Program-made: the position numbers and the translations under genes | In this document: positions 3,343 to 22,997 of the stretch, piece by piece | How positions within the stretch are numbered: position 1 is the first letter of the stretch | Layout: every line of letters begins with the position of its first letter | The notes under the pieces: generated by a model | The model's database searches: none | What the model saw: the letters and a program-made list of their open reading frames with translations, nothing else | Told to the model about the DNA's origin: nothing | Source: a virus | Length of the DNA stretch: 28,475 bases | IMG/VR virus record: IMGVR_UViG_3300047457_000120 | Span: 1 to 28,475 of that record | Strand: one strand, 5' to 3'

Positions 3343-3669
3343 ATGACCCCAGCACTCATCAACCATATCGTTGACACCACCGCAATGGTACTCGGAATTA
3401 GCCGAGAAGCCATCTGCTCCAGTTCCCGAAAGCGGGCCAACGTCATAGCCCGGAACATCATCACCGACGTTGCCTACAACGACTTCCTGTTCAAGTACCA
3501 CGAAATCGGGGCAGTCCTCAAGCGCAACCACTCCACGCTGATAAAAAACAAACTCTCCTACGAGCAGGACATCATCGCAACCCCTGAAATCAAGTACATC
3601 CGCAGACAAGTTTTACACAATGCTCAAGATTTTTTGTTAAATCTTTACGGAGGCTATAATTCTAAGTAG
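3343..3669 (+). CDS. DnaA domain IV-like DNA-binding protein
   Basis: A 108-residue protein resembling the C-terminal duplex-DNA-binding domain of DnaA. The key feature is HEIGAVLKRNHSTLIKNK (residues 53-70), which matches the DnaA signature in which an IG...L.R.HST segment forms the helix-turn-helix contacting the DnaA box. The upstream part (VLGISREAICSSSRKRANVIARNII) matches the first helices of that domain, including the basic helix. There is no AAA+ ATPase domain, so it cannot act as a full initiator. It may bind DnaA-box-like sites as a regulator, a host DnaA competitor or a phage origin-binding factor. The family resemblance is good; the role is inferred. Confidence 0.75.
   Translation: MTPALINHIVDTTAMVLGISREAICSSSRKRANVIARNIITDVAYNDFLFKYHEIGAVLKRNHSTLIKNKLSYEQDIIATPEIKYIRRQVLHNAQDFLLNLYGGYNSK
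3634..3660 (+). promoter_or_regulatory. Possible promoter for the 3671-3760 RNA element
   Basis: TTGTTA (3634-3639) and TATAAT (3655-3660) are separated by 15 bases inside the end of the DnaA-like gene. The pair resembles a general sigma-70 promoter more than the Bacteroidota consensus and would start transcription near 3667, just before a structured intergenic region. Weak evidence on its own. Confidence 0.25.
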
Positions 3670-3670
3670 G

Positions 3671-3760
3671 TGCGACTTAGGTCGTCGGTCAGCCCCCGAT
3701 AATAGGCAAGACCGTGAGATTCGGACGGGGGGGTGCTTCAGTGCATCCCCCTATTTTTTT
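3671..3760 (+). ncRNA. Candidate structured RNA ending in a terminator
   Basis: The intergenic stretch can fold into successive elements. A small hairpin pairs CGAC (3673-3676) with GTCG (3681-3684). A longer stem pairs CGGTC-A-GCC (3686-3694) with GGC-AA-GACCG (3705-3714). Its loop contains CCGA (3696-3699), which can pair with TCGG (3721-3724) to make an H-type pseudoknot. The final hairpin is the terminator at 3728-3760. A CCCCC run (3693-3697) could alternatively pair with the terminator's G run, giving an attenuator-like switch. It could be a small RNA or a regulatory 3' UTR. Pairing was judged by eye only. Confidence 0.35.
3728..3760 (+). terminator. Rho-independent terminator after the DnaA-like gene
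   Basis: Nine base pairs form between GGGGGGTGC (3728-3736) and GCATCCCCC (3743-3751), with one G-U pair and a six-base loop. The tail is TATTTTTTT (3752-3760). It ends the early small-gene operon and sits immediately before the promoter box of the sigma-like gene. Confidence 0.88.
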
Positions 3761-3763
3761 GCA

Positions 3764-3771
3764 TACCTTTG
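3764..3771 (+). promoter_or_regulatory. -7 box TACCTTTG directly before the sigma-like gene
   Basis: TACCTTTG is a perfect TAnnTTTG box and ends only three bases before the ATG at 3775. Transcription would start at or very near the start codon, so the mRNA would be leaderless or nearly so. No clear TTG -33 element is seen at the expected distance. Confidence 0.55.
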
Positions 3772-3774
3772 CGT

Positions 3775-4326
3775 ATGCAGTCAGCCGAAACCGTAATCCT
3801 TGACCTCTACCGTTCAGGCGAAATCAAGAAGGCTTGCATCACCATCACGGGCGGCGACCCGCTTTGGAGGGATTTGGAGCAGGAATGCGTACTTATCCTG
3901 CTGGAAAAAGACCCCGCCAAGATTCTGCAAATCCAATCCCAAGGCTACTTCAAGTTCTATGTGGTGCGTCTGCTCCTGAACCTGTACCGTGGCAAGAATA
4001 ACCAATTTGCGCAGAAGTACCGCCATCACGACATCACCGAGGAAATCGACCCGAATGCTGATATGACCCACGAAGAGTACAGTTCGCTGGTTGACGATAT
4101 GTGGGCGATTGCCGAATCGGAGATGGATTCGTGGGCCAAGGAGGGGGCGTTCCCCTACGACAAGGAACTGCTGAAACTTCACATGGCTACCGGGAATATG
4201 AAGAAACTATCCCGTGACACAGGCATCCCCTACCGCTCGGTCATTTATTCCATCGAGCAAGCCAAGGCCAAAATCAAAGCCGCAATTCTATTAAAACATG
4301 GAAACACTACTGATATTACTCGTTAG
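3775..4326 (+). CDS. Sigma-70-like (ECF-type) transcription factor, putative
   Basis: A 183-residue protein with the two-part plan of a small sigma factor. Residues 32-83 (DLEQECVLILLEKDP...YFKFYVVRLLLNLYRGKNNQFAQKYR) resemble region 2, with an aromatic and basic helix. Residues 131-168 (ELLKLHMATGNMKKLSRDTGIPYRSVIYSIEQAKAKIK) form a region-4-like helix-turn-helix. Proteins like this in Bacteroidota phages are often annotated as sigma-like. ATG 3775 is preferred over an upstream in-frame start at 3733, which lies inside the terminator. The gene has its own terminator-flanked promoter, and four similar promoter-like elements precede late units, so it is a candidate late-gene sigma factor. It might instead be a DNA-binding protein of another kind. 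Confidence 0.6.
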   Translation: MQSAETVILDLYRSGEIKKACITITGGDPLWRDLEQECVLILLEKDPAKILQIQSQGYFKFYVVRLLLNLYRGKNNQFAQKYRHHDITEEIDPNADMTHEEYSSLVDDMWAIAESEMDSWAKEGAFPYDKELLKLHMATGNMKKLSRDTGIPYRSVIYSIEQAKAKIKAAILLKHGNTTDITR

Positions 4327-17060: not shown

Positions 17061-17999
17061 ATGAGTTATTCATTTGTTGCACCGCTGACTACCTATACCG
17101 AGCAGCAGCGTTTGCCCCTCATCACCAAAGCCGTGTTCTCGGCTCGTTCGGCATCCTTGTTCACCAAGCAAGTTGGTATCAAGTCAGCCGCCGCTCTCAA
17201 CCTGATGGACACCGATGCCGCTATTGCAAGCGGTGATTCTTGCGGATGGACTTCTTCAGGAACCACAACCTTCACTCAGCGGAATATCACCGTTGGTCGC
17301 ATGAAAATCCAAGAAGAACTTTGCCCTCGCTCTTTGGAGCAGTACTGGATGCAATCCCAGTTGACCGCAGGGTCATCTTACGACGGTGTTCCTTTCGAGC
17401 AGGCGTTCTCCGAGCAGAAGGCTCTCCGCATCGCTGAGGCCTTGGAGAACGCTATTTGGCAGGGTAATGCCTACTTTAGCGGTATCAATCAACTGCTGAA
17501 TGCCGCTTCGGGTTCTACAGTTCTTGCCAACGCTTCCTCTACCACTTGGACTCCAGTATCTGCTTCCGTTGGTATTACAACTTCCAACGTCATCAGCATC
17601 TTCGACAAGGTGTACAATGACATCCCACAGGCCATCTTGACCCGCAACGACCTCGTAATCTTCTGCGGTTGGAATAACTTCCGCACCTTGATTGGCGCAA
17701 TGAAGTCGCAGACTGGTGTCATGTACAATCAGGTGGACTTGCAAGGCATGGCTGACGGTGACATCATCTACCCCGGAACAAACGTCCGTGTAGTTGCAGT
17801 TCCCGGCTTAACTGGTACTAACCGCATCGTTGCAACCTACCTCGGCAACTTGTTCTACGGAACTGATTTGCTTTCGGACGAAGAACAGTTTTCCATCTGG
17901 CATTCAATCGATAACGACTCTATCCGTTGGCAGGCAGCCTTTAAGGCTGGAGTGAATTTTGCCTACGGAGATATGATGGTTGACTTCAAATTGGCCTAA
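17061..17999 (+). CDS. Major capsid protein, HK97-fold type
   Basis: A 312-residue protein in the position and pattern of HK97-fold coat proteins. The N-terminus (SYSFVAPLTTYTEQQRLPLITKAVFSARSASLFTKQVGIK) lacks a long delta domain because scaffolding is separate. Further on come EELCPRSLEQYWM, the spine-helix-like EQKALRIAEALENAIWQGN and the axial-domain segment LVIFCGWNNFRTLIGAMKSQ. The C-terminus is typical (GTDLLSDEEQFSIWHSIDNDSIRWQAAFKAGVNFAYGDMMVDFKLA). It is preceded by the scaffold-like gene and followed by a strong terminator, consistent with being the most highly expressed gene. No crosslinking Lys/Asn pair can be identified by eye. Confidence 0.9.
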   Translation: MSYSFVAPLTTYTEQQRLPLITKAVFSARSASLFTKQVGIKSAAALNLMDTDAAIASGDSCGWTSSGTTTFTQRNITVGRMKIQEELCPRSLEQYWMQSQLTAGSSYDGVPFEQAFSEQKALRIAEALENAIWQGNAYFSGINQLLNAASGSTVLANASSTTWTPVSASVGITTSNVISIFDKVYNDIPQAILTRNDLVIFCGWNNFRTLIGAMKSQTGVMYNQVDLQGMADGDIIYPGTNVRVVAVPGLTGTNRIVATYLGNLFYGTDLLSDEEQFSIWHSIDNDSIRWQAAFKAGVNFAYGDMMVDFKLA

Positions 18000-18005
18000 G
18001 TGTAA

Positions 18006-18036
18006 GGGGGGAGGGCAACTTCCCCCCGCTTTTTTA
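18006..18036 (+). terminator. Rho-independent terminator after the major capsid gene
   Basis: Stem of seven pairs between GGGGGGA (18006-18012) and TCCCCCC (18021-18027), eight-base loop, then GC and a run of six T. It ends the head operon that starts near 15801. Confidence 0.88.
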
Positions 18037-18067
18037 TTCTTACAACTCTTAAAATAAAATATACACT

Positions 18068-20194: not shown

Positions 20195-20745
20195 GCGTAC
20201 AAACTCGCACCCAGTTGCAGGCAAGTGCCGCAACCATCACCAACGAAACCGCCGCAGGGGCGAACACCGCTGCCCGTGTGGGTGGTCTATTCGACGACCT
20301 TGCCGATACCGCAACCCTTGACCGAGAGCGGGGCGTTGCGAACCTTTATCTTGATACACCTACCAATTGGACACCAACCCAAGGCCAAGCCGTCAAATTA
20401 ACGTCTGCGATGAAGTTGGGTGTTTTGTCAACTTACAACTTTACCCGCACAACCACGGCCATAACCTACACAGGCACGACGCAGGCGATGCTTCGGGTGT
20501 CGGTGAACATGGTCATTTCGCAGGTCAATAGTGCGCAAATAAAAATCTACATCGCCAAGAATGGCACAATCATTGCCCAATCCATGGCTGACCTTACGCT
20601 ATCGCACGACAACGGCCATGCGGTCTTCACCGAAACGGTACTGCAAGGCACGGACAATGCAGAGTTCTCGGTGTACATCAACGCTGTTGACCATTCGGAT
20701 GCCATCACGATTTCGGCTCTCACCTTTACTGTACAGACAATATGA
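20191..20745 (+). CDS. Putative head-fibre or tail-fibre protein with jelly-roll-like C-terminus
   Basis: A 184-residue protein with two parts. The N-terminal section (SVQTRTQLQASAATITNETAAGANTAARVGGLFDDLADTATLDRERG) matches a short oligomerisation/anchor segment common in Bacteroidota phage fibre proteins. The C-terminal part (residues 75-184) runs as alternating strands (AITYTGTTQAMLRVSVNMVIS...AQIKIYIAKNGTIIAQS...DNAEFSVYINAVDHSDAITISALTFTVQ), in the style of trimeric C1q/TNF-like jelly rolls in phage head fibres. It is coupled by ATGA to both neighbours, the surface protein and the portal, suggesting a portal-vertex or capsid attachment. The role is inferred from pattern and context. Confidence 0.65.
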   Translation: MSVQTRTQLQASAATITNETAAGANTAARVGGLFDDLADTATLDRERGVANLYLDTPTNWTPTQGQAVKLTSAMKLGVLSTYNFTRTTTAITYTGTTQAMLRVSVNMVISQVNSAQIKIYIAKNGTIIAQSMADLTLSHDNGHAVFTETVLQGTDNAEFSVYINAVDHSDAITISALTFTVQTI

Positions 20746-22997
20746 GCAGTGTAAAGCAATCCTTTACCCAATGGTTGGGTATTGAACACAAAGTGCCAGT
20801 CATGTTGGAGAACAAAGCGGGCAAGTACATCACTTACGGGGCGTTCAACGAGTACCCATATTACCTGCTGGACAACTACCGCCGCAGTTCAAAGCATAAC
20901 GCCATAGTTAACGGAAAAGTTAACTACATCGTGGGTGGTGGCTGGAAGGCAGGCGATAAGATGACCGTAGAGCAGCAAGCACGTTACGCCAAGTTCTTTG
21001 ACGGATTGAGCGAGCATGACGACCTGAACGACATCACCGAAAAACTTGTCCTTGATTTGGAAATCTTCAACGGCTTTGCGGTCTGCGTCCATTGGAACAA
21101 GATGGGAACGATTGCGAAGATGGAACACGTCCCCTTCGAGAAAATCCGCGTGGACAAGGAAGAACGGATGTTCCAAGTGGCCGAGTGGTACAATGACGAC
21201 ATGGTGCAACTGTTCCCGAAGATTGGCGATGTCGAGAAAATCCCTGCCTTTGACCCTGACAACCGAATCGGCAAGCAGTTGTTTTATTACCGTGTCTATG
21301 CCGCTGGCGTGAAGTCCTATCCCCTCCCCGAATACATGGGAGGGTTGGCTTGGATTGAAGCGGACGTACAGGTGGCAAACTTTCACAATAACAACCTGCG
21401 CAACAACTTTTGGGGCGGGTACTTGATAAACTTCAACAACGGCATTCCGACCCCTGAAGAACAGGGCGATATTGAACGTCAAATCAAGCGCAAGTTTAGC
21501 GGTACGGACAACGCTGGAAGGTTCGTGGTAACCTTCAATGACGATGTCAGCAAAGCCCCAACATTGGAACCGCTCACACCGAGCGACATGGACAAGCAGT
21601 TTGAGATCCTCAACAAAGCGATCCAACAGGAGATCTTCATCTCGCACAGGGTAGTGAATCCGATGCTATTCGGCGTGAAGACGGAAGGACAACTTGGTGG
21701 CAGGCAGGAATTGGTGGAGGCTTACGAGTTATTCAAGGCCACCTACATCAACGACCGTGTGCGCAAAGTTGAGCGGATGATAAACTACTTGGGCTCGTTC
21801 AACGGCGTGGAGGGGATGGAACTGATTCCTGTTGAACCGATTACGGAGCAGTTAAGCGAAAACGCAATGATTCAAGCAATGACCCCTTCAGAACTGCGTG
21901 AGAAGGCTGGCTTGCCTCCGATTGAAATCAAGACCGAGAGCAGCGTGCAGGATGTCATCACGGCCATCAATAGCCTCTCTCCACTCGTTGCAAACAAGGT
22001 GCTGGAGGCAATGTCGCCCAATGAAATTCGTGCGCTTGTATCGCTTCCTGCGAAGCCTGAAGGACAAGGTCTTGCACCTGATATGGCAACCGAAGTAAGC
22101 CCCGAACCAACTGCACCGCAAGGCTTGGCCTCCAACGACAACATCAAGAAGTTGTCGGGCCGTGAGTACCAAAACCTCATGCGTATCGTGCGGCACTATG
22201 CACAGGAAAAGATTACCTTGGAGATGGCTCGCACCATGCTATCCGCTGGATTCGGATTAAGCGCAGAGGAAGTCAATACCTTGCTCGGAGTTCAGGAACA
22301 GAAGTTCAGCAACCCGACCGAACCGTGGTGGGGTGAGGAAGATGACGAGAGCGACCTTGGATGGGGTGACGAGGAGTACAAGGTGTTGGAGGTGGTCGCC
22401 AGTAAGTTTGGAAGCAACGCAGACGACTATGTGGTGATGCATAGCAAGCCTATGCGCTTCGATTCCGATTTGGACACGCAAGTACGCCAAGCCTTCGCCG
22501 AATTGGGCGAGGAAGAGAAAGAGTTGGACGAGAAAATTGTAGCCTACCGCAAGAAGAACCGTGACGCAAGCGTGGAGGAAATGGCCAAGGAGTTCGGGGT
22601 CAGCAAGGCGAAAATCGCAAAGCGTGTGGCGTACTTGATTAACAAAGACCGCTACCCCATCGCAAGGACCGTGGACCAAATCGGCAAGGAAGGCGCAAAG
22701 CCAACGGCAGAGCCTGTACTGGAAGTCCGCTACAAATACGCATGGGCCGCAGGGTTCAGCGACAAGGACAAGCGCACAAGCCGTGAGTTCTGCAAGGTCA
22801 TGATGGACTTGGCTGACCAAGGCAAGGTGTACACCCGTGACGACATCGACGGCATTTCTTCCATCATGGGCTATTCCGTTTGGAATCGCCGTGGTGGTTG
22901 GTATCACACGGCAAGCGGAGTGAATCGACCCCAATGCAGGCACGTTTGGGAGCAGCAAATCGTCATCCGCAAAGGCAATAAAATAAGCAAAGCATGA
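20742..22997 (+). CDS. Portal protein with C-terminal minor-head-like extension
   Basis: A 751-residue protein. Residues 1 to about 400 are portal-like: YPYYLLDNYRRSSKHNAIVNGKVNYIVGGGW at the N-terminus, DLEIFNGFAVCVHWNK, and FISHRVVNPMLFGVKTEGQLGGRQELVEAYELFKATYIN in the ring core. After an Asp/Glu-rich linker (about 540-570) comes a helix-turn-helix-like segment (SVEEMAKEFGVSKAKIAKRVAYLINKDRY, about 611-639). A last domain (about 663-751) has RTSREFCKVMMDLADQGKVYTRDDIDGI...RRGGWYHTASGVNRPQCRHVWEQQ, which matches the C-terminal domain of Mu gpF-like minor head proteins. So the portal appears fused to a minor-head module. Most portals are 400-550 residues. The portal call is firm; the fusion is seen in sequence and its role is open. 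Confidence 0.88.
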   Translation: MSSVKQSFTQWLGIEHKVPVMLENKAGKYITYGAFNEYPYYLLDNYRRSSKHNAIVNGKVNYIVGGGWKAGDKMTVEQQARYAKFFDGLSEHDDLNDITEKLVLDLEIFNGFAVCVHWNKMGTIAKMEHVPFEKIRVDKEERMFQVAEWYNDDMVQLFPKIGDVEKIPAFDPDNRIGKQLFYYRVYAAGVKSYPLPEYMGGLAWIEADVQVANFHNNNLRNNFWGGYLINFNNGIPTPEEQGDIERQIKRKFSGTDNAGRFVVTFNDDVSKAPTLEPLTPSDMDKQFEILNKAIQQEIFISHRVVNPMLFGVKTEGQLGGRQELVEAYELFKATYINDRVRKVERMINYLGSFNGVEGMELIPVEPITEQLSENAMIQAMTPSELREKAGLPPIEIKTESSVQDVITAINSLSPLVANKVLEAMSPNEIRALVSLPAKPEGQGLAPDMATEVSPEPTAPQGLASNDNIKKLSGREYQNLMRIVRHYAQEKITLEMARTMLSAGFGLSAEEVNTLLGVQEQKFSNPTEPWWGEEDDESDLGWGDEEYKVLEVVASKFGSNADDYVVMHSKPMRFDSDLDTQVRQAFAELGEEEKELDEKIVAYRKKNRDASVEEMAKEFGVSKAKIAKRVAYLINKDRYPIARTVDQIGKEGAKPTAEPVLEVRYKYAWAAGFSDKDKRTSREFCKVMMDLADQGKVYTRDDIDGISSIMGYSVWNRRGGWYHTASGVNRPQCRHVWEQQIVIRKGNKISKA

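Follow-up and report, generated by a model that had tools for sequence, protein, structure and literature searches.

A predicted RNA gene with an invariant core precedes a sigma-like gene in a group of uncultured phages

What occupies the short gap between a DnaA-like and a sigma-like gene in the genome of an uncultured phage, and does it serve the gene that follows or act elsewhere? The DNA analysed, a virus record from IMG/VR, is 28,475 bases long and is here referred to as the window. Its terminase is ~51% identical to the terminase of Flavobacterium psychrophilum phages, on which basis the phage host is probably a member of the Bacteroidota. The gap (3670-3774) is preceded by genes for a helicase, a methyltransferase and a 108-aa protein similar to DnaA domain IV (Bac_DnaA_C; 3343-3669; Pfam PF08299, E 2.6e-9), homologs of which were found. 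An ECF-sigma-like gene (3775-4326) adjoins it on the 3′ side, and the terminase genes (5411 and 5817) are found further downstream; the gap itself is at the junction of the early and late regions. The features of the gap and its flanking genes are all on the plus strand. An earlier note had described the 105-base gap as holding a compact structured RNA, with CCGA (3696-3699) and TCGG (3721-3724) as partners in an H-type pseudoknot and a C5 run at 3693-3697, and the coordinates of the gap and of these three motifs were confirmed.

The comparison with related phages argues that the gap holds an RNA gene, predicted to give a non-coding RNA of ~90 bases. Homologs were collected among IMG/VR contigs in searches with the DnaA-like protein, the RNA core and the sigma-like protein. 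The element is present in ~80 related contigs, with 24 distinct cores and 49 distinct full sequences. Its core, GTCGGTnAGC..CGATAA..GGC..CCGTGAGATTCGG (3684-3724), is the same in 27 distinct aligned sequences and unvarying across all carrier contigs; the 5′ hairpin and the terminator vary. Mean identity in the core is 87% vs 54% at the third codon positions of the sigma gene (nine diverse members), and the proteins encoded by the upstream ORF are 19-93%, mostly 30-60%, identical among members. Moreover, a covariance model of the element, which matches the window at 3665-3760 (109.8 bits), scores carriers at 82-111 bits and non-carriers at no more than 21 bits, the latter match being on the terminator. 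A search for variant cores in which the CGG/CCG arms were left free gave none, with chance matches in L334 and L335 only; L330-L333 were likewise chance matches. A small peptide encoded by the element was rejected since in-frame stops and a 1-nt difference in length between the types break every reading frame.

Promoters in Bacteroidota carry TAnnTTTG at -7 and TTTG near -33 (PMC7366714). A predicted promoter of this type (3634-3664) is contained within the 3′ end of the DnaA-like ORF, where TTG (3634-3636) is followed by N20 and TAATTCTA (3657-3664) or, in an alternative register, by N18 and TATAATTC (3655-3662). The box in the window is itself weak; near-perfect or full matches occur in several homolog lineages, and the homolog promoters include TTG-N20-TATCTTTG, TTG-N20-TATTTTTG and TTG-N18-TATATTTG. 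The mean score over 42 distinct upstream regions is 6.19 of 8, compared with 3.73 for shuffled regions (maximum 4.24 in 200 sets). In the N20 register, A3668 would be the first transcribed base and the predicted RNA would extend from there to the T-run (3668-3760; ~90-93 nt), its ends being set by the promoter register and the terminator. Judged by its sequence, the element thus has a promoter and a terminator of its own, as a phage small RNA gene would. The TATAAT-like sequence at 3655, from which the earlier note had started a transcript, is present; as a sigma-70 promoter it was rejected, however, because it is without a TTGACA (-35) partner (3 other promoter-like sites were counted vs 4.2 expected), and the Bacteroidota-type promoter is found instead.

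The folding energy of the whole element in the window is lower than that of most shuffled sequences (z -2.05; 8 of 200 shuffles were as good), while the core without the terminator folds no better than shuffled (z -0.15). In 27 homologs, z averages -2.4 when the terminator is included and +0.30 when it is left out. The folding-energy signal is that of the terminator and says nothing for the remaining element, such that the expectation of a fold better than shuffled holds for the whole and fails for the core alone. Compensatory changes among homologs, which the earlier note had proposed to look for, were found in the 5′ hairpin and the terminator. In the hairpin P1 (CGAC-UUAG-GUCG; 3673-3676 paired with 3681-3684), the arms CGAC/GUCG are replaced by CUAC/GUAG or CUGC/GCAG. 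These GC/UA and AU/GC double changes affect two pairs (in 12 and three sequences, respectively); a U-G wobble and a broken pair occur once each, and 99% of the cells are paired. The intrinsic terminator, with its stem at 3727-3752 and T-run at 3754-3760, is as strong as had been claimed, and its stem exists in at least five unrelated sequences among the homologs, every one of them paired. Hence, compensatory change preserves secondary structure in P1 and the terminator, and not in the core. An alternative hairpin over P1 (AAGU/ACUU) was discarded, as it is lost in L128 and L145. Collectively, the homolog alignment, the P1 covariation and the promoter score support the view that the element encodes a compact, structured RNA (~90 nt) and has both a promoter and a terminator to itself.

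How the core itself folds is less constrained. Candidate helices are P2 (CGG 3686-3688 with CCG 3712-3714), P3 (GCC 3692-3694 with GGC 3705-3707) and P4 (CCG 3712-3714 with CGG 3722-3724, enclosing the 7-nt loop UGAGAUU), in addition to the candidate CCGA/UCGG pseudoknot (3696-3699 with 3721-3724), which has base pairing potential. P2, P4 and the pseudoknot are in part mutually exclusive, and covariation offers no choice among the four pairings because the paired bases are invariant. The pair extending P4 (48-62) is kept in 18 cases vs 13.8 by permutation (P 0.02, uncorrected for relatedness), and the extension of P2 is not kept beyond permutation; for this reason the data lean towards P4 with its 7-base loop. 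The pseudoknot is possible; three of its four pairs never vary and the outer pair is missing in 13 of the 27 sequences. Pair 40-62 covaries in count but is positioned outside any helix, and it was read as a lineage effect. T-loop patterns are known in tRNA and riboswitches, and UGAGA in the P4 loop fits the pattern, a resemblance only.

In every contig with room for it, the core is found 85-93 nt upstream of the ECF-sigma-like gene and nowhere else. The locus position, together with the Foldseek matches of the downstream product (see below), supports the earlier placement of a small RNA directly upstream of a sigma-like gene. The DnaA-like gene is the usual upstream neighbour; in L180 its place is taken by a methyltransferase gene. 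Close relatives without the RNA exist, one sister group keeping the terminator only and another having neither. The sister group L144-L179 has retained the -7 box of the sigma gene along with the intrinsic terminator, and lacks the RNA. The genes flanking the junction are closely similar in L250, which carries the element, and L252, which does not. When 135 sigma genes are placed on a tree, parsimony gives 17 changes of the presence label, at least six of them on well-supported branches, with bootstrap values that are not fully settled. Recombination between phages can produce a patchy pattern of this kind on the sigma tree, and the interleaving of carriers and non-carriers suggests allele swapping by recombination at the junction. 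In its distribution the element resembles an accessory cassette, a point in favour of a stand-alone RNA gene.

The gene that follows encodes a protein of 183 aa and is the first of the late region. Its AF2 model has a mean pLDDT of 62.6, and the best Foldseek matches, at prob 0.99 but E 0.02, are to ECF sigma factors; Pfam and NCBIfam profile searches gave no sigma match, and the product is therefore called sigma-like on the strength of its modelled fold. Several hundred relatives are present in IMG/VR (466 loci, tblastn), there was no match among 50,697 phage records, and the protein falls into no profile family. A -7 box, TACCTTTG (3764-3771), is positioned 3 nt 5′ of the start codon and is seen with or without the RNA, with a mean of 5.0-5.6 of 6 matches in the RNA-carrying, terminator-only and RNA-less classes. 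The -33 TTG at a spacing of 17-21 nt is mostly missing, and in the L182 group the -7 box has decayed to CATCTTTA. An ideal sigma promoter in the RNA-less relatives was considered and dropped, the spacing there being 22 nt. In all classes, the -7 box is only 2-3 nt from the ATG, GTG or TTG start codon, a distance that implies a leaderless or nearly leaderless sigma-like mRNA. The window also has a perfect 6-bp inverted repeat at 3761-3778 (GCATAC-CTTTGC-GTATGC), which spans the start codon of the sigma gene as well as the TACCTTTG box and is only partially conserved among the homologs.

What might such an RNA do? The reading that we prefer, with confidence that falls a little short of even, is an independently transcribed, stand-alone phage small RNA that acts in trans via its invariant core. 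In this scenario, a promoter of the host house-keeping-sigma type, contained in the last part of the upstream gene, would drive the ~90-nt RNA, the transcription of which would end at the intrinsic terminator. P1 and the terminator stem would be generic stabilising end structures, free in sequence as long as they stay paired. The working part would be the invariant middle, which includes the loops CGAUAA and UGAGAUU and would most likely bind in trans to a single conserved partner, either a protein or an RNA, of the host or the phage. The conserved non-coding unit, the P1 covariation, the terminator, the promoter-like sequence and the patchy presence are read from the sequence; production of the RNA, its ends and its action in trans are what we infer from them. 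An independent small RNA is favoured by the -7 box of the sigma gene, which persists whether or not the RNA is there: with its own box behind the terminator in either case, the sigma-like gene need not depend on the RNA promoter. A leader is favoured by the constant position of the element ahead of the sigma gene, which a free-standing, trans-acting gene would not need. Other points against a stand-alone RNA are that the core folds like shuffled sequence, that no target in the phage genome exceeds chance, that the -7 box has decayed in the L182 group and that the -33 element is mostly missing.

We rank the stand-alone small RNA somewhat ahead of its main rival, in which the RNA is the 5′ leader of a sigma-led late operon: transcripts from the promoter at the close of the early region would halt at the terminator, and a factor, or the core itself, would permit read-through, in the manner of lambda 6S/tR′/Q or HK022 put. 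This is a possible reading, to which we give a minor though substantial share of belief. It would explain why the element always precedes the sigma-like gene, even in L180 with its methyltransferase gene upstream, and why it is situated between the early and the late regions, ahead of the terminase genes. Moreover, the order is lambda-like, with a promoter that overlaps the end of the gene before it, then a short RNA, a terminator and the late genes, and the put RNAs are ~70 nt long, structured and protein-independent (PMC9378689). However, base pairing between core and terminator is not conserved: with an invariant core and a terminator stem that is free to vary, there is no conserved antiterminator pairing. 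Relatives also manage without the RNA, some with the terminator alone and some with neither, and the -7 box of the sigma gene is found behind the terminator in all classes. The same comparison bears on the switch proposed in the earlier note, a classical attenuator or riboswitch in which the C5 run (3693-3697) pairs with the G-run of the terminator to give two mutually exclusive folds. The window has both runs and the pairing can form, but in most homologs the C run is replaced by CCTACGA, and the terminators of several lineages, for example GGAAGCCGGG or AGGGTCAGC, are without a G run. The C and G runs do not co-occur, and an antiterminator pairing that is conserved was not found, the core being invariant while the terminator arms differ freely; we regard the switch as the least probable of the readings considered.

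Two further explanations do without a functional RNA. The conserved unit could be DNA, to which the DnaA_C-like protein might bind or which might serve as an origin or recombination site. GATAA is complementary to TTATC (half of a DnaA box), the gene for a DnaA domain IV protein adjoins in most contigs, and an inverted repeat could also be preserved by a cruciform. We consider this unlikely: the RNA-less relatives retain the DnaA-like gene and L180 has the element without that neighbour; P1 is free in sequence with pairing kept and has one U-G wobble, unlike a protein site; and a promoter and a terminator on the same strand frame the element. The gap could also be a spacer with a terminator that merely ends the upstream transcript, as the energy signal comes from the terminator alone and one sister group keeps the terminator only. 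Yet the conserved part is the core and not the terminator, and the core is invariant over sigma genes with only ~40-70% third-position identity, which makes a plain spacer very improbable.

Searches of databases and the literature suggest that the RNA family is new. Rfam 15 gave no match at the gathering threshold; P31 and ceN80, which came up in a search to E 10, are both on the opposite strand and were put down to chance. Two pattern scans of GTDB gave 0 and 53 matches, all 53 of which are inside coding DNA and without P1 or terminator. Among 395 Bacteroidota genomes, no match was obtained with the covariance model or the sigma alignment, in a search that had no positive control. For antisense targets in the phage genome, the best score was 30.5 vs 29.5 ± 3.2 for shuffled RNA, which is no excess over chance. 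The open-licence literature gave no description of the family. It appears to be new as a family; its kind, the short terminated phage RNA, is already known.

In behaviour, HK022 put RNA and the lambda late leader are the closest models. The lambda leader (6S RNA, pR′-tR′) with Q is alike in that a promoter at the end of the last early regulatory gene gives a short terminated RNA ahead of the late operon. It is ~194 nt long and is not known to be an invariant structured RNA; here, no Q relative was identified and the RNA is dispensable in close phage relatives. HK022 put RNA suppresses termination in cis without a protein, via the zinc-binding domain of the RNA polymerase beta′ subunit (PMC9378689). 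putL and putR are short, structured, sequence-constrained phage RNAs behind a promoter and before a terminator and operon, as is predicted here. They are, however, ~70 nt long with two consecutive stem-loops and act on distant terminators of the early operons, whereas here the terminator is 2-3 nt from the core. The size is similar, the only well-supported stem is P1, and no match in sequence or structure was seen. In a more speculative reading, to which we give a small chance, the RNA might be a put-like, protein-independent regulator of RNA polymerase or a decoy for a conserved host factor, the first such in Bacteroidota phages, situated at the early/late junction and exchanged as an RNA cassette. 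Phage "moron" units are similar cassettes with their own promoter and terminator, present or absent between otherwise neighbouring genes, but the morons described are mostly protein genes and the element here is non-coding. To our knowledge, very little is known about small RNAs in Bacteroidota phages. Small RNAs of the Bacteroidota themselves, for example in B. thetaiotaomicron (PMC7366714), share the TAnnTTTG promoter with TTTG at -33, the short RNA and the intrinsic terminator; unlike these, the element has no sequence match in the 395 Bacteroidota genomes or the GTDB scans.

The RNA is thus one without an Rfam entry in which a candidate 13-base hairpin (CCG-UGAGAUU-CGG) never varies. Should the RNA act in cis, it would reveal how these phages turn on their late genes; if in trans, the invariant core points to a conserved host partner. 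Closely similar phage pairs with and without the RNA make its effect directly testable. Elsewhere in the window, the covariance model has a second, weak match at 17995-18038 (16.8 bits, E 0.74), just 3′ of the ORF 17061-17999, which is likely another intrinsic terminator. In the portal-like ORF 20742-22997 (751 aa), residues 563-642 weakly match the phage sigma-factor family phrog_351 (E 0.0034), possibly as a fused C-terminal domain.
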